This document shows, piece after piece, positions 110 through 9,545 of a stretch of DNA of 11,247 bases (its first letter is position 1; each line of letters starts with the position of its first letter). The stretch is taken from NCBI GenBank assembly GCA_017303735.1, contig JAFLCF010000142.1:1-11247 (forward strand), given 5' to 3'. The notes beneath the pieces were generated by a model. That model was given only the letters and a program-made list of their open reading frames with translations. It was not told where the DNA came from and searched no databases. The stretch comes from Anaerolineae bacterium. GTDB taxonomy: Bacteria; Chloroflexota; Anaerolineae; Anaerolineales; Villigracilaceae. The position numbers and the translations under genes were made by a program.

Positions 110-958
110 TCAATTTGAAAATACAGGTTCTTCGGCTTGCATGCGCTGCACATTGGCGTAGACGTTGAAACGCTGTCCGCGCAGGAAGCCGATCAAGGTA
201 ATGCCAAAGCGTTCGGCAAATTCCACTGCCAGGCTGCTCGGTGCAGATACAGCACAGAAGACTGAGATGCCCGCTGAAAAACTTTTTTGCAATAGTTCAT
301 AGCTGGCACGTCCGCTGACCATTAAGACTTTATCGTGGAACGGAAGTTTGTCGTTGAGCAAACCCCAACCGATCAATTTATCCAAGGCATTATGGCGACC
401 TACATCTTCGCGCACGGCGAGGAGATTGCCTTCAAGGTCGAATAAGGCTGCAGCGTGGAGTCCGCCAGTGGATTCAAAGAGGTCTTGCGCACTGCGAAGT
501 TTTTCTGGCAAAGATGTGATCAACTCAGGCGAGACGATGGGTCCGTTCGGGAGTGGCGGCAAATTCCGTTCGCCAATATCATCCAGCATGGTGGTGCCGC
601 AAACGCCGCAGGCGCTGTTGGTGAAGAAATGCCGTTCGAGTTGCTTAAGCTCGGGCATGGAATCAGCTGTCAGCTGAATCCGAAGCGAGTTGTATTCCTG
701 CTGGTTGCCGTCTACGCAATAGGTCATGCCGGTGATCTCGTCTTTGCGGAGCAAAATCCCTTCGTTGTAGAGAAAGCCCGCGGCGAGTTCATAGTCGTTG
801 CCGGGGGTGCGCATGGTGATGGCAACTGTCTGCTGTTTGTCTCCGGCGCGCAAAAGGATCTCCATCGGCTCTTCCGTGGCGAGGATGTCTTTGCGGCGTT
901 GAGGCTTGCCGTTATCATACGTCCAGATCATTTGTTTTTTCTTATTAAAGCGAGTCAT
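110..958 (-). CDS. fdhD: FdhD, formate dehydrogenase accessory sulfurtransferase
   Basis: The 282-residue protein has the normal FdhD length. In E. coli, FdhD takes sulfur from IscS and passes it to the bis-MGD molybdenum cofactor before insertion into formate dehydrogenase; without it the enzyme is inactive. The family's CxxC sulfur-relay motif is present as SACGVCG (Cys117 and Cys120). Other conserved blocks are TPGNDYELAAGFL near residues 51-63, EDVGRHNALDK and SGRASYELLQK in the C-terminal half. The start is set by AGAAGGT (963-969) 4-5 nt upstream of the ATG. It is the last gene of the operon, 81 nt downstream of the catalytic subunit it serves, which supports a Mo/W-bis-MGD formate dehydrogenase here. 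A strong hairpin lies in that gap. It is also called FdsC in NAD-linked systems. Nothing appears broken. Confidence 0.96.
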   Translation of the reverse strand: MTRFNKKKQMIWTYDNGKPQRRKDILATEEPMEILLRAGDKQQTVAITMRTPGNDYELAAGFLYNEGILLRKDEITGMTYCVDGNQQEYNSLRIQLTADSMPELKQLERHFFTNSACGVCGTTMLDDIGERNLPPLPNGPIVSPELITSLPEKLRSAQDLFESTGGLHAAALFDLEGNLLAVREDVGRHNALDKLIGWGLLNDKLPFHDKVLMVSGRASYELLQKSFSAGISVFCAVSAPSSLAVEFAERFGITLIGFLRGQRFNVYANVQRMQAEEPVFSN

Positions 959-1039: not shown

Positions 1040-3118
1040 TTACACTGCTTCCACACGAACCGTGCAGACTTTCATCTCGGCGGTGTGCGTCTCGGGGTCA
1101 TACCCGGAGCCGGTGAGGATGTTGACGGGCGTATCTGCATAACTGAAACTGGCGAAAACGGTTCCACGCGGAGAACGCGACGTGGCTTTAACTTTGATCT
1201 TGATCTCGCCGCGTCGACTCGTGATCTTCGCCCAGCCGCCATCCGTCAGCCCCCACTTCTTGACATTGTCGGGATGGACTTCCAAATATTCTTCGGGCGC
1301 AAGATATTCAATGCCCGAGGAGCGCCCGGTCTGTGTGCGGGTGTGATAATTCTGCAAACGGCGACCGGTGGTAAGCCAGATGGGAAATTCATCGTCCACC
1401 ACTTCAGCCGGGTCACGATAACCAATGGCACGCAGGATGGCACGTCCATTGCTGAAGCCATCTTCATGCAGGCGCGGCGTACCGGGGTGACCCTTATACG
1501 GAATGGGCCACTGATATTGACCGCCGTCGATCAAGTCCCAGTCCACACCGGCATAGATGGGAACAAGGCTGCAAATTTCGTTGAAGACTTCGGCAGGCGA
1601 ATCGTATTCAAAGCCCTGGAAGCCCATCGTGTTTGCAAGCGCACTTAGAATCCACCAATCGGGTTTGGCTTCTCCGGGCGGAGTGACCGCCGCACGCACG
1701 CGTTGGATGCGGCGTTCGGTGCTGGCAAAGGTTCCATCCGTTTCGCCCCACGAGGTGGCAGGCAAAACCACGTCTGCTAATTCAGCGGTCTCGGTTAAGA
1801 AGATATCGATCACGCAAAGGAAATCCAACTTGCCCAGAGCGTGTTCACAATGAGCACGATCAGGATCGGAAACGACCGTATTCTCGCCATCGATCAACAT
1901 CGCGTGGATGCCTTCGCCGCACATCTCCAGTGCGGTCACTTTGGTGATGCCTTTCTCAGCATCCATCGGGCGACCATACGCCTTCTCGAATTTTTCGCGG
2001 TTCTCCGGCTTGAGCACAGACTGATAGCCGGGGTAATCACTCGGAGCGGTTCCTGCATCACCCGCACCCTGAATGTTATTCTGCCCACGCAGCGGATTGA
2101 TGCCGCAGCCTTCTCTTCCCAAATGACCCGTCATCAAGGCGAGATTGCTCAAGCTTTGAACGTTGTCCACGCCACAGATGTGTTCGGTGATGCCGAGCGT
2201 GTAATAGATGGAGGCTTTGTCGGCACTCGCATACATGATCGCAGCTTTTTCAATATCCTTGACGGGTACGCCTGTGATCTCAGAAGCCCATTCGGGTGTG
2301 AATTGTTTGACGTGGGCAATGTATTCTTCGATGCCAGTGGTGCGTTCTTCGATGAACCTATGATCCAGCAGATTCTCGCGGACGATGACATGCGCCATGC
2401 CAAGCAATAACGCCACATCAGTACCGACGCGCAGAGGCAGATAGAGATCAGACATCTCTGCCAGTTTGATGTAACGCGGGTCTGCCACGATGAGTTTGGA
2501 ACCGCGTGTCAATGCTTTCTTCATACGGGTTGCCGCCACAGGGTGGCATTCCGTCATGTTTGTGCCAATGCAGAAATAGACATCTGCCTTTTCCAGGTCA
2601 GACAAGGGATTCGACATGGCACCGCGACCGATGGTTGCCGCCAGACCGGCGACAGTGGGCGCGTGTCAGGCACGGCTACAGTTGTCTATGTTATGGGTGC
2701 CGAACCCGGCGCGGATGAATTTCTGCATCAGGTAATCGGCTTCGGTGGGAGTGCGTCCGCTGGAGACGCCGTAAATGGCGTGGCGTCCATACTTCTGCTC
2801 CACGTTGCGGAAGCCATCGGCTGCCACTTGCAAGGCTTCTTCCCAGGTGGTCTCATGCAGTTTGCCATCTTCGCGGCGGACGAGCGGTTTTTTCAACCGA
2901 TCCGGGTGATGGACGTAGTCATAGGCAAACTGTCCCTTCACGCAGAGCGCGCCCAAATTGGCAGGACCATCCATGGCAGGCTGCACGCCGATGATGTGAT
3001 CATCCTTGCTAAGGATATCCACTGAGCAACCCACGCCGCAGTATCCGCAGACAGTGCGAGTCTTTTTCACGCCCGAGTTGATGAGAGGCAATTCACGTAA
3101 TTCTTGTAGTAGCGCCAT
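1040..3118 (-). CDS. fdhA: Formate dehydrogenase alpha subunit, selenocysteine-containing (Mo/W-bis-MGD)
   Basis: This is the catalytic subunit for formate oxidation to CO2, read as one 692-residue protein with TGA at 2668-2666 decoded as selenocysteine 151. The frame is open on both sides and reads NCSRA-U-HAPTVAGL, the exact place of Sec140 in E. coli FdhF; His152 and Arg344 (in NPLRGQNN) match the FdhF active-site His and Arg. Residues 20-75 form the N-terminal 4Fe-4S domain with Cys24, Cys27, Cys31 and Cys59. The molybdopterin oxidoreductase core follows, and the C-terminal dinucleotide-binding domain begins near FPIWLTTGRRLQNYHT and ends near residue 690. The start is supported by AAGGAG (3126-3131) 7 nt upstream. 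Unlike FdsA or HylA-type alpha subunits it has no NuoG-like N-terminal extension; the preceding gene supplies that part. Without Sec insertion, translation would stop after 150 residues. A second start at 2617 would lack the 4Fe-4S domain and is not credible. Confidence 0.93.
2637..2668 (-). promoter_or_regulatory. UGA selenocysteine codon and bacterial SECIS-like stem-loop
   Basis: Downstream of the in-frame UGA (2668-2666) the mRNA can form a 6-bp apical stem, GUCGCC (2653-2648) with GGCGGC (2642-2637), closing a GGUCU loop (2647-2643). The distance from the UGA to GGUCU is 18 nt, the same as in E. coli fdhF, whose apical loop also carries GGUC. SelB is known to bind such a loop in bacteria. 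Part of the sequence is also fixed by the protein motif VAGL, so loop conservation alone is not proof; a pairable stem plus matching distance makes the case good. Confidence 0.8.
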
Positions 3119-3192: not shown

Positions 3193-3852
3193 CTAAGCAT
3201 GTCGTAAGGCTTTTTTATCTGCCAACGCGCCCGTCGGGCAAGTCTGCACGCATTGACCGCAGAAGGTACAAGCCGAGGAACGCAGTTCCAAGTTGAACTC
3301 GGTGGTGATCTGAGTATGGAATCCGCGGTTCATCACACTGATGGCGTAGTCGCCTTCCTGCTCAGCGCAGACGCGCACACAACGATAGCAGGAAATGCAC
3401 AGATCATAATCGCGCAAGATGAACGGATTCTTGTCATCGAGTCTGCTATGACCCGATTGCGCGCCCTTGAAGCGACCTGTCTTCGCACCGTATTTTTCCA
3501 CCAAAATGGAAAGTTCCTGCGAAGCCACGCCGCGCAATGGAGAGACTTCCAACTCGCGGTTTTCCGAAACGACCATTTCCAGTAAGGTCTTGCGGTGCTT
3601 CTCCAAAACATCAGTGACGGTGTTCACTTCCATGCCAGCCGTTGCCGCCGTCGTACAAGAGGCGACCGGGTTCTTCATCCCTTTGATTTCCACGGCGCAC
3701 ATACGGCAGGAGCCGAACGGTTTGAGGCGCGGGTCAAAGCATAAAGTTGGGATGAAAACATCATTACGCTGGGCGATATCAAAAATGGTTTCGCCTTGCG
3801 TGAACGGCACATCTTTGCCGTCTAACTTCATGGTGAGTTCGTTATCAGCCAT
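3193..3852 (-). CDS. NuoG-N-terminus-like 2Fe-2S / 2x4Fe-4S subunit of formate dehydrogenase
   Basis: This 219-residue electron-transfer protein resembles the N-terminal part of NuoG, HndD or FdsA as a separate polypeptide. A plant-type 2Fe-2S domain covers residues 5-80 with Cys38, Cys49, Cys52 and Cys66. A ferredoxin-like pair of 4Fe-4S motifs follows: Cys152, 155, 158, 162 (CISCYRCVRVC) and Cys195, 198, 201, 205 (CTFCGQCVQTCP). Between them, residues 94-122 align with the region that in NuoG carries the His-Cys3 cluster (SEHP..C..C.....C), but here it reads SENRELEVSPLRG and has no cysteine, so that cluster is apparently absent. It likely carries electrons between the diaphorase encoded just upstream and the catalytic subunit just downstream. 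The start overlaps no other gene: the preceding stop lies 3 nt away and GAGG inside the previous gene acts as Shine-Dalgarno, pointing to translational coupling. It could also be annotated as formate dehydrogenase beta-like or HoxU-like; HoxU is a close structural analogue. Confidence 0.88.
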   Translation of the reverse strand: MADNELTMKLDGKDVPFTQGETIFDIAQRNDVFIPTLCFDPRLKPFGSCRMCAVEIKGMKNPVASCTTAATAGMEVNTVTDVLEKHRKTLLEMVVSENRELEVSPLRGVASQELSILVEKYGAKTGRFKGAQSGHSRLDDKNPFILRDYDLCISCYRCVRVCAEQEGDYAISVMNRGFHTQITTEFNLELRSSACTFCGQCVQTCPTGALADKKALRHA

Positions 3853-3855
3853 GGC

Positions 3856-5544
3856 TCACCTCTTTTCCACGAATTCCTGCACGCGGGCAGGGAATTGCTT
3901 GATCAGGCTTTCGATCACCAAGGGTGCCGCCATGCCCAAGCCGCAAGCGCTGAAGGATTTCATCGCTGCATTCATATCATTGACTTCTTCCAACCAGACC
4001 TGCAACTGCATGGGACCTTCACCAGATAATCGTTCAGTCAAACGCTGAGTTCCAAGACGGCAGGGGAAACATTTGCCGCAGGATTCATGCGCAAAGAATT
4101 CCATTGCATTATGAGTTACTGCGATCATATCGCGGCTGTCATCGAGCACGATCATACCTGCCGCGCCGAGCATCGAGCCTTTGCTGCGAATGCTGGGTTC
4201 ATCAATTGTCGCGGTTTCGAGGTCTTCACCCGCCAGAAAACCGCCGGAGAGTCCAGCCATCGTCACGGCTTGGAATGTGCGCCCGGGCTTGGGTCCGCCT
4301 GCCCAATCGTACAGCAGAGTCTTCAACGGCAAACCGAACGGCACTTCGTAGTTTCCGGGGCGTTGAACATCTCCTGAAAGAGAAACAACTTTGGTACCGG
4401 CGTGACCGTTTAGTCCCAATTTGGTGTACCACTCTGGCTCATGTCGCATGATCTGAGCCGCCGCTGCCAGCGTTTCCACATTGTTTACCGCCGTCGGCAG
4501 ATTCTCAAATCCGTGTGTCACAGGGAAAGGCGGACGATTGCGCGGGAAGGGATGCTTGCCCTCAAGGCTATTGAGCAGCGAGCCTTCTTCACCGCAAATG
4601 TACGCGCCGCCGCCGCGCCGCACATACAATTCAAAATTAAAGTTCGAGCCTAAAATATTCTTGCCAAGCAAATTCGCGGCATACGCATCGGCGATGGCTT
4701 TTTCCAACAAAAGATTCGTTTCGGGATATTCGTAACGCAAATAAATAATTCCGCGCGCCGCACCCGTAGCATACCCGGCGAGGGTCATGCCTTCGATCAC
4801 GGCAAACGGGTCGTAGTCCATGATCGCGCGGTCTTTGAAACAACCCGGTTCGCCTTCGTCTGCATTACAAACAATAGACTTTGGTTCACCTGGCGCATCA
4901 GCCACAGCTTGCCACTTCACACCGGTTGGGAACGCCGCCCCGCCGCGCCCCGCCAACTTACTGGCTTTGATATGTTCGATCACATCTTTGGGCGTCATCT
5001 CTTTGACGGCGCGCATCAGACCTTCATAACCACCTGTTCGGCGGTACCCGGGCAGGGTGCCACGCTCGGGCTCTCGGATCTGCGCAAAGACGCACTCTTC
5101 GATCTTGCCAGGGTTCACCGGCGGCACAGGCGTGGACTTGCGAGTCAGGTTGCCCTGCGCATCGCCCACCCATTGCTCATTGCCGATCAACACCGGAACC
5201 GGTTCATCACATCGCCCTGCACACGGCATCGACGTAGCACCTTGTTCTGCCAACGCAGAAAGACATTCATGCCCGCCATTTAAACGACAAACGGGTCCCG
5301 TACAAACCCGCGGTTTGTTGAACCCGTTCTCTTGCTGGCTGAAGTGATGATAAAAAGTGACTGTGCCGAACAGGTCGGCAAGGGGAACCCCCATACTTGT
5401 AGAGATTGCACGCAAGGCACTCTCTGAGATGTATCCATCTCGTTCGTGGAAGGCGTGTAATATTTTCAAGAGAGGGGCGGGACTGTCTTGCAGTTGTTCA
5501 ACGAACAAAAGATCGATGGCTTCTTGATCAATAACTTGTTCCAT
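3856..5544 (-). CDS. nuoEF: NuoE-NuoF fusion, NAD(H)-linked diaphorase subunit of formate dehydrogenase
   Basis: A 562-residue fusion moves electrons between FeS clusters and NAD+. Residues 1-125 are NuoE-like: a helical part, then a thioredoxin-like 2Fe-2S site with Cys81, Cys86, Cys108 and Cys112 (CTGPVC and CAGRC). The gap between the two cysteine pairs is 21 residues, shorter than the roughly 35 usual for NuoE. Residues 160-562 are NuoF-like: the FMN-binding loop AGRGGAAFPTG (198-208), CNADEGEPG (226-234), the NADH-site glycine-rich GGGAYICGEE (311-320), an SLBB-like segment, and the N3 4Fe-4S ligands Cys489, Cys492, Cys495 (SCGKCFPC) and Cys534. As first gene of the operon beside a formate dehydrogenase, it is expected to make the complex NAD-dependent, like FdsBG, rather than part of respiratory complex I, whose other subunits are missing. 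There is no Shine-Dalgarno before the ATG; a -10-like box 6 nt upstream suggests a leaderless mRNA. Confidence 0.93.
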   Translation of the reverse strand: MEQVIDQEAIDLLFVEQLQDSPAPLLKILHAFHERDGYISESALRAISTSMGVPLADLFGTVTFYHHFSQQENGFNKPRVCTGPVCRLNGGHECLSALAEQGATSMPCAGRCDEPVPVLIGNEQWVGDAQGNLTRKSTPVPPVNPGKIEECVFAQIREPERGTLPGYRRTGGYEGLMRAVKEMTPKDVIEHIKASKLAGRGGAAFPTGVKWQAVADAPGEPKSIVCNADEGEPGCFKDRAIMDYDPFAVIEGMTLAGYATGAARGIIYLRYEYPETNLLLEKAIADAYAANLLGKNILGSNFNFELYVRRGGGAYICGEEGSLLNSLEGKHPFPRNRPPFPVTHGFENLPTAVNNVETLAAAAQIMRHEPEWYTKLGLNGHAGTKVVSLSGDVQRPGNYEVPFGLPLKTLLYDWAGGPKPGRTFQAVTMAGLSGGFLAGEDLETATIDEPSIRSKGSMLGAAGMIVLDDSRDMIAVTHNAMEFFAHESCGKCFPCRLGTQRLTERLSGEGPMQLQVWLEEVNDMNAAMKSFSACGLGMAAPLVIESLIKQFPARVQEFVEKR

Positions 5545-5669: not shown

Positions 5670-5691
5670 CACTCAGTGAGTATATATGAAT
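5657..5691. promoter_or_regulatory. 35-nt palindromic operator over the padR start
   Basis: Two perfect 17-bp arms, ATTCATATATACTCACT (5657-5673) and its complement (5675-5691), flank a single central C. The site covers the -10 box and the padR ATG at 5686. Dyads of this size at a PadR-family start are typical of autoregulatory operators; the core ACTCACT-C-AGTGAGT is the likely contact region. It lies about 100 nt from the divergent fdh promoter, so joint control is possible but not shown. The dyad could also fold as an RNA hairpin that would hide the start codon. Confidence 0.85.
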
Positions 5692-6249
5692 AAAAAAGAA
5701 CACCACAGTGGCAACCTCTCCCCCGAATTTGCGCTCATGGGCTTTCTGATTGAAAAGCCCTGCCACGGCTACGACCTGCACCAACGTCTCACCACCGAGC
5801 TTGGGCAGGTTTGGCATTTAAGTCAAAGCCAGGCGTATGCCATTTTGAAACGGCTTGAAACCCGCGGCGATATTTCTGCCCGTATGGTCGCACAGGAGAA
5901 ACTGCCTGCCCGCCAAATGTTGCACATCACCGCCAGCGGACGCAAACGCTTCTTCGAATGGCTCGAAACCGACATCAGCTCCACCGCCCGCTCCATTCGC
6001 CTGGAATTTCTCACACGCCTGTATTTTGCAAATCTATACCGCCCTGAGACCCTGCCGCAAATTTATCACTCGCAATTAATCGAAATTAATTCCAAGGTCG
6101 AGCAACTCGAAACCTTGATCGAACACCTCCCGCCCGAACAAACCTACAACCGCTTAAGCCTCGACCTTCGCCTCCAACAAATGAAACTGATCGAAACCTG
6201 GATGTCGGAGATACGAACTCAATTTCATATTTCAAGGATGGAGAAATGA
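5686..6249 (+). CDS. PadR-family transcriptional regulator
   Basis: This 187-residue protein has a PadR winged-helix domain at about residues 14-85: EFALMGFLIEKPCHGYDLHQRL opens it, SQAYAILKRLETRGDI is the recognition-helix region, and LHITASGRKRFFEWL ends the wing. The C-terminal half (95-187) is helical and charged, as in PadR subfamily Vir-type dimerisation domains. PadR proteins are usually repressors released by a small ligand; the ligand here is unknown. The gene sits inside its own presumptive operator and overlaps modA by 4 nt (ATGA), so it is cotranscribed with molybdate uptake genes and probably controls them. The ATG at 5686 is chosen because it falls 10 nt past the expected transcription start; a shorter start at the internal Met18 would cut the first helix. 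Confidence 0.9.
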   Translation: MNKKEHHSGNLSPEFALMGFLIEKPCHGYDLHQRLTTELGQVWHLSQSQAYAILKRLETRGDISARMVAQEKLPARQMLHITASGRKRFFEWLETDISSTARSIRLEFLTRLYFANLYRPETLPQIYHSQLIEINSKVEQLETLIEHLPPEQTYNRLSLDLRLQQMKLIETWMSEIRTQFHISRMEK

Positions 6250-7046
6250 GACGCCATCTACACATCGCCCTCTTGCTCGCCTTGTTGCTTGCAGGATGTA
6301 CAACCGCTCAAGCCACGCCGGTAACTGCTCCTGTCACCCAAGCAACTCTAAACGTCTTCGCCGCCGCATCTCTCACCGATGCGTTCACTGAAATCGGTGA
6401 GAACTTCCAAACCGTGAACCCCGGTGTGACCGTCACCTTCAACTTCGCCGGGTCACAAGCGCTACGCACTCAAATTGAAGAAGGCGCCCCAGCCGATATC
6501 TTCGCCTCTGCCAGCGGCAAAGAAATGGACGCTGCCATTGAAGGGAAATTCATTGCAGAAGATGCCAAGCAAGTTTTCCTCACGAACAAACTGGTTGTCA
6601 TCCTTCCGGCGAATAACCCTGCTGGTTTGGAAACACTCGAAGATCTCACGAAATCAGGTGTAAAGATCGTACTAGCCGCAGAAGAAGTGCCAGTCGGCAA
6701 TTACGCCCGCCAATCACTTGACCTCATGAACGGTTCCTTTGGTGCTGATTTCAAAGACAAGGTCCTCGCAAATGTGGTCTCCAATGAAGATAACGTCAAA
6801 CAGGTGGTATCCAAAGTTCAATTAGGCGAAGCCGATGCGGGCATCGTATACACCTCAGACGCTGTCGCTGCCCCTGAATTGAAGTCCATTGAAATCCCCG
6901 CCGAGTTGAACGTCATTGCCAAGTATCCCATCGCTCCACTGGTGGAATCTGAAAACGCGGACCTCGCCCAGGCTTTCATTGATTATGTCCTTTCAGATGA
7001 AGGTCAAGCCATTCTGGCAAAATGGGGTTTTGGTCCACAACCATAA
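6246..7046 (+). CDS. modA: ModA, molybdate ABC transporter substrate-binding lipoprotein
   Basis: This 266-residue protein captures molybdate (possibly tungstate) outside the membrane and delivers it to ModB. The signal peptide has an Arg-rich start, a Leu/Ala core and a lipobox LLAGC with Cys18 as lipid anchor, expected where a soluble periplasm is lacking or limited. A Thr/Pro/Ala linker to about residue 33 precedes the type II periplasmic-binding fold. Family motifs are LNVFAAASLTDAF (35-47), FNFAGSQALRTQIEEGAPADIFASAS (positions about 65-90), VPVGNYARQSL and AGIVYTSDA. Its start overlaps the padR stop by 4 nt and AAGGA (6234-6238) is 7 nt upstream, so translation is coupled. A strong terminator directly follows. 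Molybdate uptake fits the neighbouring Mo-dependent formate dehydrogenase. Tungstate specificity cannot be excluded from sequence alone. Confidence 0.95.
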   Translation: MRRHLHIALLLALLLAGCTTAQATPVTAPVTQATLNVFAAASLTDAFTEIGENFQTVNPGVTVTFNFAGSQALRTQIEEGAPADIFASASGKEMDAAIEGKFIAEDAKQVFLTNKLVVILPANNPAGLETLEDLTKSGVKIVLAAEEVPVGNYARQSLDLMNGSFGADFKDKVLANVVSNEDNVKQVVSKVQLGEADAGIVYTSDAVAAPELKSIEIPAELNVIAKYPIAPLVESENADLAQAFIDYVLSDEGQAILAKWGFGPQP

Positions 7047-7061
7047 ACAGGGTAATATCGG

Positions 7062-7091
7062 TCGCGGGAGGAAGACCTCCCGCGATTTTTT
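7062..7091 (+). terminator. Intrinsic terminator between modA and modB
   Basis: A perfect 10-bp stem, TCGCGGGAGG (7062-7071) with CCTCCCGCGA (7076-7085), an AAGA tetraloop and six T residues (7086-7091) form a textbook Rho-independent terminator. It ends 5 nt before the modB ATG. The only purine-rich GGAGG near modB is locked in the left arm, about 25 nt away. The arrangement suggests that most transcripts stop after modA and that fewer reach modB. Confidence 0.9.
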
Positions 7092-7096
7092 AATCC

Positions 7097-7885
7097 ATGA
7101 AACTATTCTCTTCACGTTCAAAATGGCTGTTTATCCTCCCCAGCATTTTTATGTTGGCTTTATTTCTATTGCCGCTTTCCGCCATCTTGATCCGCTCGAT
7201 CGGGGATGATTTCTTTACCAATGCATTTTCTGAGCAAGCCTTCAAAGCCCTGCGTCTGAGTCTTATTACCAGCACCATCACCACATTTTTTGCCATTCTA
7301 CTTGGCACGCCTTTGGCATACATGCTCGCCCGTTGGAAGTTCCGCTTCAAAACCGCGCTTGAATTGCTGATCGACCTGCCCATTGTCTTACCGCCTTCAG
7401 TAGCTGGGCTTGCCTTGTTGATCGCTTTTGGTCGCCGCGGACTCTTCGGCTCCTTGCTGAGTGAAGTCGGCATTAGTTTGCCATTTACAACGGCAGCGGT
7501 GGTACTTGCTCAACTTTTTGTGGCTGCCCCTCTTTACATCCGCTCGGCACGGATCGGCTTCGCCGAAGTGGATGAACAGCTCGAAGAAGCTGCCAATGTA
7601 GAAGGTGCGAATCAATGGCAGGTCTTTCGATCTGTAATGCTGCCCTTGGCTGGGCGCGCCCTCATCAGCGGCGCGATTCTGACATGGACACGCGCCCTCG
7701 GCGAATTTGGTGCGACGATTCTTTTTGCGGGAAATCTTGAAGGAATCACACAAACCATGCCCATGGCGATCTATCTCGGATTTGAGCGTAATATTGGGGT
7801 GGCGCTTTCCCTCTCGGTTGTTCTTATTTTAGTTTCCACCCTGTTACTCTTGCTCACTAGAAAACTTGAAAAAGAAGAAACCTAA
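7097..7885 (+). CDS. modB: ModB, molybdate ABC transporter permease
   Basis: This 262-residue integral membrane protein forms the translocation channel for molybdate. Hydrophobic segments lie at about residues 10-32, 51-78, 91-111, 131-148, 181-202 and 233-254, the usual six-helix plan. The cytoplasmic EAA loop that docks the ATPase is clear: LEEAANVEGANQWQVFRSVMLP at about 142-163, followed by the family hallmark TRALGEFGATILFAG. Upstream, VLPPSVAGLALL is also typical of ModB/CysW permeases. No Shine-Dalgarno is visible before the ATG, and a terminator hairpin ends 5 nt upstream, so expression must rely on read-through or an unrecognised signal. A CysT/CysW sulfate permease is an alternative, but the ModA partner makes molybdate or tungstate far likelier. 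The ATPase ModC is not encoded in this window. Confidence 0.94.
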   Translation: MKLFSSRSKWLFILPSIFMLALFLLPLSAILIRSIGDDFFTNAFSEQAFKALRLSLITSTITTFFAILLGTPLAYMLARWKFRFKTALELLIDLPIVLPPSVAGLALLIAFGRRGLFGSLLSEVGISLPFTTAAVVLAQLFVAAPLYIRSARIGFAEVDEQLEEAANVEGANQWQVFRSVMLPLAGRALISGAILTWTRALGEFGATILFAGNLEGITQTMPMAIYLGFERNIGVALSLSVVLILVSTLLLLLTRKLEKEET

Positions 7886-7896
7886 CCCTATTTAAC

Positions 7897-7930
7897 GGCT
7901 TACGCCGCGCAGTGCGCGGCGTAGCCTTTA
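7897..7930 (+). terminator. Terminator-like hairpin after modB
   Basis: A 10-bp stem TACGCCGCGC (7901-7910) with GCGCGGCGTA (7914-7923) closes a 3-nt AGT loop and is extended by GGC/GCC with one bulged T. TTTAG follows on the plus strand. It lies 11 nt past the modB stop and probably ends padR-modAB. It also lies downstream of the minus-strand small gene, so it may serve both directions. The short T-run makes it weaker than the modA one. Confidence 0.7.
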
Positions 7931-7982
7931 GACCAACTCAGAGGGAGGAGAGAGAGTTTGGATGAACAGCGTTTCGGCTGTT

Positions 7983-8204
7983 CTATTCAACAGGGTCAAC
8001 GTCAGGGTTTGTTCCGCTCAACGAGCAGGCGGGGTGTTCGAGACAATTGCATTCCAATGCTTTCGAACAGCGCCGGGCTTGAATGCGGGGGGCTTGCATG
8101 GGCAGTTGTTCCGCCGGGTATACAACCTCGACTTCGATGGCGATGGTGTCCTGCACACGTTCGCAGTACTTGGTTTTTTCAACTTGCCAAACCTTCTTTG
8201 CCAT
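7983..8204 (-). CDS. Small cysteine-rich protein of unknown function
   Basis: I do not recognise a named family. The 73-residue protein starts MAKKVWQVEKTKYCERV, continues with an alternating charged/hydrophobic stretch (IAIEVEVVYPAEQLP) and has a C-terminal half with Cys46, Cys52, Cys54 and Cys60 (C-x5-C-x-C-x5-C), plus Cys14. This could bind a metal or form disulfides. No signal peptide or membrane helix is seen, so a cytoplasmic place is likely. It is called real because AGGAGG (8210-8215) lies 5 nt before the ATG, an ideal Shine-Dalgarno, and because the composition resembles a folded protein. It lies between a strong terminator of the upstream gene and the modB hairpin, so it appears to be its own transcription unit. 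An overlapping plus-strand reading frame (7962-8237) is a less likely competitor. Confidence 0.75.
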   Translation of the reverse strand: MAKKVWQVEKTKYCERVQDTIAIEVEVVYPAEQLPMQAPRIQARRCSKALECNCLEHPACSLSGTNPDVDPVE

Positions 8205-8209
8205 AACTG

Positions 8210-8215
8210 CCTCCT
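8210..8215 (-). promoter_or_regulatory. Strong ribosome binding site of the 73-residue gene
   Basis: A complete AGGAGG on the minus strand, 5 nt from ATG 8204, decides both that this small frame is coding and where it starts. Confidence 0.8.
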
Positions 8216-8240
8216 GACTCCGATGATATTAGTTTAAATG

Positions 8241-8270
8241 CAAAACACCTGCCACACTAGTGACAGGCGT
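8241..8270 (-). terminator. Rho-independent terminator after the sugar dehydrogenase gene
   Basis: On the minus strand an 11-bp stem (ACGCCTGTCAC 8270-8260 with GTGGCAGGTGT 8255-8245, including two G-T pairs) closes a TAGT loop and is followed by TTTTG. It lies 46 nt past the stop codon at 8316 and separates that unit from the small cysteine-rich gene. Confidence 0.8.
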
Positions 8271-8315
8271 CCTGAACTGGAATGACAAACCACCTATTAC
8301 GGATGTGATAAGTCT

Positions 8316-9545
8316 TTATTTTCTTGCAAGGATGTAAACCGCCCCCGTATCGCTGACGAGATACAGCTCGCCTGCTTCATCTTCGCCAAAGGATGTGATG
8401 CGAAGATCCGTCTCGAACAGGACCTGAGACTGCCACTGCCCATTGAGCAGAGTCAGCCCCCATACCGTGCCCTCGCAATAATCGCCATACAGATACACGC
8501 CGTTCCATTCGGGCATCGCGCCGCGGTAGACATAGCCGCCAGTTACGGAACATCCGCTATACGGGTTAGAGTGGCTGTACTCTGCGGCAGGGAGCAGCAA
8601 GCCGGGTTGAGCTTCACCATCGTACCCGTAGCTGCCTTCCATAATACTCCAGCCAAAATTCGCGCCGCCGGGCGAGCCTGCCGGGAGGTAGTCCACTTCT
8701 TCCCATTCCCCTTGACCCACATCGCCGATCCACAGATCGCCGGTGGCACGGTCAAACGAGAAGCGCCAGGGGTTGCGCAGACCATACGCCCAAACTTCGT
8801 TCCCAAATGGATTATCAGCAGGGATGGCATATGGGTCGCCGTTGTTCACGTCGATGCGCAAGAGCTTGCCAAGCAAGGCATCAAGGTTCTGTCCGTTCTT
8901 GAATGGGTCGCCACCCGCACCGCCATCACCCAGCCCGAGGTAAAAATACCCGTCAGGTCCGAAAACCACGCCGCCGCCGTTGTGATTCGGAAAGGGCTGG
9001 TCTATGACCATCAGCACTTGCTCACTGTTCGGGTCGGCAACGTCCCCACTGGCGGTGAAACGCGAGATGCGGGTATGCCCGCCTTCACCAGTGTAGTTGA
9101 CGTAGAAATAGCCATTCTGTTCATAGTTTGGGTGAAAGGCAAGACCCAGCAAGCCCATTTCGTTGCTTTCATCATTCACGCGGTCGTCGATATTCAGAAA
9201 AGGCTGGTCAAGCAGCTGCCCATCTTTGGCAACGCGAATCGCGCCGTATTTTTCGATGACGAACAAACGCCCGGAGCCGTCAAAAGCTGATTGCAGGTCT
9301 ACGGGGCGGGTCAAACCGTCTACGATGGGAACCCATGCGAAGGCATTCGGATCGGGGAATTGGCTGGCGTTCGTTGTGGGAATTTCTGTCGGCGGTGGAA
9401 TGGCGGTATCCGGCTGGGGCTGAGATTCAGTCTGCGGGGCTGAAACAACTTCCGTTGGAGGAAGAGGCGTGGCAGTAGGTCCGGGGATGCCATTCCCACC
9501 ACAAGCCAGTACAGTTAACAATAAGGGGATGAGTAGTCGTCGCAT
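8316..9545 (-). CDS. PQQ-dependent sugar (aldose/glucose) dehydrogenase-like lipoprotein
   Basis: This 409-residue exported protein belongs to the soluble glucose dehydrogenase / YliI (Asd) / HHIP-like six-bladed beta-propeller family, whose members oxidise aldoses with PQQ. The N-terminus carries a signal peptide with probable lipobox ending at Cys15, then a Pro/Thr/Ser/Gln-rich linker to about residue 65 that tethers the propeller to the cell surface. Family blocks are GLLGLAFHPNYEQNGYFYVNY (positions 131-151), PNHNGGGVVFGPDGYFYLGLGDGG (186-209), VWAYGLRNPWRFSFD (251-265) and GDVGQGEWEEVDYLPAG (274-290). Cys332 and Cys357 may form a disulfide on the outside. PQQ binding is inferred from family only; many members have other or unknown substrates, and no PQQ synthesis genes are in the window. 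The ATG directly abuts the stop of the DUF1232 gene, with only a weak purine-rich stretch before it, which suggests translational coupling. Confidence 0.88.
   Translation of the reverse strand: MRRLLIPLLLTVLACGGNGIPGPTATPLPPTEVVSAPQTESQPQPDTAIPPPTEIPTTNASQFPDPNAFAWVPIVDGLTRPVDLQSAFDGSGRLFVIEKYGAIRVAKDGQLLDQPFLNIDDRVNDESNEMGLLGLAFHPNYEQNGYFYVNYTGEGGHTRISRFTASGDVADPNSEQVLMVIDQPFPNHNGGGVVFGPDGYFYLGLGDGGAGGDPFKNGQNLDALLGKLLRIDVNNGDPYAIPADNPFGNEVWAYGLRNPWRFSFDRATGDLWIGDVGQGEWEEVDYLPAGSPGGANFGWSIMEGSYGYDGEAQPGLLLPAAEYSHSNPYSGCSVTGGYVYRGAMPEWNGVYLYGDYCEGTVWGLTLLNGQWQSQVLFETDLRITSFGEDEAGELYLVSDTGAVYILARK

Follow-up and report, generated by a model that had tools for sequence, protein, structure and literature searches.

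The window analysed here, an 11,247-nucleotide stretch of a contig from an Anaerolineae bacterium (Chloroflexota), holds on one strand the genes fdhD, fdhA, a HoxU-like gene and a fused nuoEF, in that order, with padR, modA and modB diverging from them. At its heart lies a catalytic gene that looks broken, interrupted by a TGA codon within its own reading frame. The features on which the argument rests are these:

110..958, minus strand: fdhD, accessory sulfurtransferase of formate dehydrogenase (287.7 bits to NCBIfam NF001943, cut-off 269; stop codon TGA)
1040..3118, minus strand: fdhA, formate dehydrogenase catalytic subunit, 692 residues with TGA read as selenocysteine (TIGR01591, Pfam)
2666..2668, minus strand: in-frame TGA that forms codon 151 of fdhA, a putative selenocysteine codon matching TGA codon 140 of Escherichia coli fdhF in alignment
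2637..2653, minus strand: bacterial SECIS-type hairpin GUCGCC-GGUCU-GGCGGC, six pairs of which one is U-G, conserved in relatives
3193..3852, minus strand: HoxU/NuoG-like iron-sulfur electron-transfer subunit, 219 aa (Fer2_4 and Fer4_Nqo3 over cut-off)
3856..5544, minus strand: fused NuoE-NuoF-type flavoprotein with a presumed NAD site, 562 aa (Pfam; stop codon TGA)
5686..6249, plus strand: PadR-family regulator, divergent from the fdh operon (PF03551, 51.3 bits; stop codon TGA)
6246..7885, plus strand: modA and modB, for the binding protein and the permease of a molybdate ABC transporter (TIGR01256, TIGR02141)

With the TGA taken as a residue, FdhA scores 771.8 bits against the NCBIfam Fdh-alpha model TIGR01591 (cut-off 666.25) and carries three molybdopterin oxidoreductase domains (PF04879, PF00384 and PF01568). 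The product of 3193..3852 falls under the cut-offs of NF040763 (180.3 bits) and of the HoxU model NF005745 (163.6 bits). The fused NuoEF contains PF01257 (residues 16-101), PF01512 (192-362), an SLBB domain and PF10589, and reaches 429.7 bits against the NuoF model TIGR01959, under its cut-off of 558.65. Iron-sulfur and NuoE/NuoF flavin subunits thus adjoin fdhA, as expected for an NAD-linked formate dehydrogenase complex, and such an enzyme is the likely product of the gene set as predicted from its domains. Across the divergent side, modA (177.3 bits, cut-off 62.5) and modB (215.5 bits, cut-off 182.6) score over their cut-offs; the stretch from modB to the following gene (window 6246-8316) has no modC-size open frame, so the transporter ATPase is probably encoded elsewhere. 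The window's gene order, tested over nine genes, is reproduced in two relatives (L002 and L003), and among the best 80 relative loci, some of them cut by contig ends, the HoxU-like subunit has a homologue in 74 and NuoEF in 57.

The frame of fdhA runs from 3118 to 1040 on the minus strand, with a single in-frame TGA at 2668-2666 and a TAA as its terminal stop. A sequence-only reading of this DNA had claimed that both flanks of the TGA share one frame, that they join in the motif NCSRA-U-HAPTVAGL, and that TGA remains an ordinary stop for other genes such as fdhD and padR. Each of these points holds: the TGA is codon 151 of the frame, the motif surrounds it in translation, and TGA also ends nuoEF. 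An alignment with selenocysteine (Sec) and cysteine homologues, which that reading had put forward as a check, was run on relatives found by peptide patterns that leave out residue 151. Of 569 relatives the best 80 loci were kept; 77 of them cover the codon (L064, L065 and L072 end short of it and were excluded), and of these 72 have TGA and 5 a Cys codon. For L003 the codon was located manually, in a frame that is shifted there: at positions 10001-12061 of this locus, from an OLB14 assembly, two compensating single-base homopolymer differences displace the fdhA frame around the TGA, which may reflect assembly error or decay.

Immediately downstream lies the hairpin, at 2653-2637. The earlier claim of a 6-bp stem with a GGUCU loop 18 nt past the codon stands for the stem and the loop, with the distance needing correction in one respect: 18 nt separate the TGA from the start of the loop, and the stem begins after 12 nt. 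In E. coli K-12 fdhF, GGTCT likewise starts 18 nt past the TGA. Taken alone, the hairpin of the window is weak evidence: when its peptide is recoded at random with synonymous codons, 16% of draws yield the loop and 2.6% the loop with all 6/6 pairs; it is comparative evidence that places the putative recoding hairpin, together with its TGA, past chance. All six pairs are intact in 57/57 unique close Sec rows, and again in all eight of the more distant Sec rows. The stem columns 15-27, which are synonymous sites on both sides, pair as C-G in 36 rows, U-A in 20 and G-C in one, so that each of the 57 unique rows is paired; shuffling gives a mean of 42.4, and none of 10000 shuffles reaches 57, a figure to be taken as a guide because the shuffles ignore kinship. 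Third-position entropy is 0.12 bits at each of codons 157, 158 and 159 (in the close group of 65 rows including the window, drawn at more than 60% identity plus L003, of which 64 are unique), and most neighbouring codons in the same group lie at 1.0 to 2.0. In short, synonymous sites in the hairpin hardly vary, and compensatory changes occur. The five Cys rows lack the stem, and four of them still have the letters GGTCT. An Rfam scan of the window at the gathering threshold gave no match, and ARAGORN found nothing in it.

Recoding of this kind calls for dedicated machinery, and 39 relatives' genomes, from among those of 40 of the 80 loci, were searched for it. Over cut-off were tRNA-Sec in 36, selB in 35, selA in 33 and selD in 35; a hand tally finds all four in 30 of the 39 and at least one missing in the other 9. 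In 14 control genomes the same cut-offs were passed by tRNA-Sec in 5, selB in 2, selA in 1 and selD in 2; the tRNA-Sec cut-off is permissive, given that 5/14 controls pass it. The scores themselves are at least 59 bits for 35 of the 36 tRNA-Sec matches (the remaining one, in G008, has 53.8), and ARAGORN reports tRNA-SeC(tca) in G002 and G003. The nearest relative, G001, with an FdhA 95% identical to that of the window, has selA, selB and selD over cut-off; no tRNA-Sec passes in its bin, which has nothing truly resembling the tRNA-Sec of G003 either (best E value 0.93), and the bin is presumably incomplete. None of the four genes is over cut-off in G007, and G008 has the weak tRNA match only. 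Two 22,019-base loci, L007 and L008, agree at 21,991 positions and come from bins titled Opitutia and Rhodospirillaceae; since they are near-identical and selA, selB and selD are over cut-off in neither bin, at least one of the contigs is probably misbinned. From the relatives as a whole, we infer that the host of the window probably carries selA, selB, selD and tRNA-Sec, and an intact fdhA with a Sec codon itself implies an organism that uses selenium.

In the same genomes, 33 of the 35 over-cut-off selD matches contain an in-frame TGA. Those of G001 (L129, SACAG-U-ASK) and G003 (L131, STCAG-U-ASK) have the TGA followed by a predicted hairpin, and in both genomes selD is likely to be a selenoprotein gene in its own right.

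How else might the TGA have arisen, or be read? A Cys codon could have turned into TGA, by mutation in a dying gene or by sequencing error in a sound one, and Cys is indeed what more distant homologues carry: in a second protein search, scored on residues 1-166 and listing 120 proteins, 59 span codon 151 and all 59 have Cys there, 54 of them in alignments longer than 600 residues, with identities of 39 to 49%. Yet the same TGA recurs in 72 of the 77 relatives among the best 80 loci, in many separate assemblies, the hairpin is conserved with it, and purifying selection acts on both sides of the codon, with dN/dS against L001 of 0.015 upstream and 0.048 downstream, and against L002 of 0.078 and 0.042 respectively. 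We regard a dead or misread gene as exceedingly improbable. It is just as hard to credit that two polypeptides are made, with translation stopping at the TGA and restarting at the ATG at 2617, even though this is how the listed database entries stand. In the whole-protein search, all 120 matches listed of the 8000 scored align from residue 156 or later and are C-terminal pieces, 101 of them starting to align at residue 168, the ATG at 2617, and the longest has 546 residues. Against a restart, the 16 codons from the TGA to the next in-frame ATG are conserved as protein, with 466 synonymous and 17 non-synonymous differences between 64 close relatives and the window (counts from rows that are not independent). 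That codons past the TGA evolve as protein counts both against a stop and restart and against a dead gene. These 16 codons, moreover, include the His that aligns with His-141 of E. coli, and a split product would be without its metal ligand.

A reassigned code or suppressor tRNA that would decode the TGA as some other amino acid has scarcely any likelihood either: TGA terminates fdhD, nuoEF and padR within the window, a SECIS-type hairpin follows the codon on its 3' side, and the Sec machinery is present in most of the relatives' genomes that were searched. The proposal of the sequence-only reading, that the TGA encodes selenocysteine in a formate dehydrogenase, is supported by the relatives' codons, the conserved hairpin and the relatives' Sec genes alike, and the TGA in this seemingly broken fdhA is almost certainly read as selenocysteine, as it appears to be in many related bacteria. 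SelB-dependent selenocysteine at codon 151, serving as a metal ligand of an NAD-linked formate dehydrogenase, is the explanation that best accounts for these observations jointly, and we hold it with very high confidence. As an example the fdhA of the window is clear, but the case is an ordinary one and this kind of selenoprotein gene is well known. The point is mainly one of annotation: what looks like a broken gene is an intact one, coding for the catalytic subunit of a likely NAD-linked formate dehydrogenase.

The databases bear this out from the other direction. Among the 120 proteins listed for residues 1-166, 61 stop short of codon 151 (58 align to residue 150 and 3 to residue 149), and their C-terminal ends read DNCSRA in 56, DNCSRH in 3 and DHCARA in 2, the very residues that precede the TGA. 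None of the 120 has a U or X residue; database proteins written with U, if there are any, would escape recognition by this search. The database proteins listed for this clade are fragmentary, pieces on either side of the TGA, just as had been foreseen for a gene that automatic annotation would split, and it follows that automatic annotation will tend to under-call formate oxidation in these uncultured lineages. In the N-terminal pieces of 380-442 aa from the residues 1-166 search, FdhA starts with fused iron-sulfur domains, whereas the HoxU-like subunit of the window is separate from FdhA. When plasmid records were searched with the protein, 1531 matched, all below 60% identity.

With selenocysteine at codon 151, the working of the locus can be proposed by analogy with known families, from which insertion at this codon would itself be expected. 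SelB with GTP and Sec-tRNA-Sec would bind the hairpin just 3' of codon 151 and deliver selenocysteine to the TGA; Sec151 would then be a metal ligand at a bis-MGD site, with Mo or W as the metal expected from those families. The 692-residue FdhA would catalyse formate oxidation or CO2 reduction, either direction having precedent in them, and electrons would presumably leave FdhA by way of the HoxU-like iron-sulfur subunit and reach the FMN/NAD site in the fused NuoEF. FdhD would sulfurate the cofactor and ModAB would help to supply molybdate.

The reference selenoprotein for such a gene is E. coli formate dehydrogenase H (FdhF). A search for whole-gene DNA similarity between the window fdhA and E. 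coli genomes gave no match, so the comparison was made through protein alignment and hairpin position. The two proteins are identical at 263 of 673 aligned positions, and E. coli positions 8, 11, 15, 42, 44, 140, 141 and 333 correspond to C24, C27, C31, C59, K61, U151, H152 and R344 of the window; we take these to be the [4Fe-4S] Cys, the Lys, the Sec metal ligand at 140, the His and the active-site Arg (R333) of FdhF. In both, TGA occupies the metal-ligand position and is followed by His, and GGUCU sits at exactly +18 nt. They differ in that the window stem has six continuous pairs, whereas the helix of the E. coli fdhF hairpin has a bulged U, and in that the partners of E. coli FdhF are those of formate hydrogenlyase and the partners in the window form an NAD-type module. 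FdsABG-type enzymes have a NuoE/NuoF-like electron module, and the structures PDB 6tg9 and 6tga, presumably of an NAD-dependent formate dehydrogenase of this type, have a catalytic subunit homologous to the window FdhA (525 bits). In their 958-residue chain the match starts at residue 247, with about 246 residues ahead of it; the window, unlike these structures, has its iron-sulfur part in a 219-aa protein of its own and its NuoE- and NuoF-like domains fused.

No bacterial selenoprotein family is said to be more widely distributed than FdhA (PMC13188914). A close parallel in gene content comes from the Planctomycetes strain P1, in which an operon of Sec-fdhA and nuoEF, sited away from the Sec-insertion genes, is reported as conserved in Plesiocystis pacifica SIR-1, with transfer proposed (PMC4807772). 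Compared by description only, the window shares with that operon the Sec FdhA and nuoEF, and stands apart from it in its fused NuoEF, adjacent fdhD, divergent padR-modAB and Chloroflexota setting. For the phylum itself, a 2006 count gave three selenoproteins of Chloroflexi (PMC1794560), and a Sec-containing NAD-FDH is mentioned for a Chloroflexi single-cell genome (PMC5736913).

A quick maximum-likelihood tree built from 75 rows joins the window to L001 (support 98) and sets both within a group made up of 17 Chloroflexota rows and the window (support 99). This group is part of a large clade of 67 tree rows, or 70 with L003, L008 and L060, which are absent from the tree and were put in the clade by identity. 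Every row has TGA: 70/70, with Cys in 0/70, counting the window and 69 of the best 80 loci, two of them near-copies. Of the eight tree rows outside the clade, three have TGA and five Cys. By phylum labels taken from record titles, the clade spans six phyla, the titles including Chloroflexota, Poribacteria, Gemmatimonadota, Verrucomicrobiota, Planctomycetota and Latescibacterota, and the hairpin core is almost fixed across them. The labels cluster strongly in the tree, which alone does not show transfer. We lean, by a modest degree, towards the view that the formate dehydrogenase clade of the window is old and selenocysteine-only, bearing in mind that rare Cys members might have been missed because the rows are the best 80 loci. 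If this is true, lineages of the clade that lost selenium use would have lost the enzyme too, rather than replacing its selenocysteine with Cys, and a clade in which Cys never takes over would stand in useful contrast to the Sec-to-Cys changes described for FdhA (PMC1794560).

The Poribacteria deserve separate mention. Ten of their loci in the tree (L004, L006, L011, L013, L015, L017, L018, L020, L023 and L024) have the FdhA and HoxU-like parts, and no NuoEF homologue was found in these rows within up to 10 kb on each side; the electron partner of Poribacteria FdhA may be different. Our literature search found nothing on selenocysteine in Poribacteria, and we do not claim that the clade is absent from print.

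Co-occurrence was tallied by hand over 61 genomes (G003 and its relatives), counting FDH-like matches of any FDH clade above about 120 bits that contain one in-frame TGA. Among the matches listed, 35 of the 61 genomes have such a TGA-bearing FDH, and selA is over cut-off in 33 of these 35 as well as in 17 of the 26 genomes where none is listed (Fisher p 0.006), so that the association of selA with TGA-bearing FDH is present yet not exclusive. Many of the G003 relatives in the series G040-G098 carry other FDH genes with an in-frame TGA, about 40-48% identical and often in frames longer than 900 aa, a Sec-FDH type unlike that of the window.
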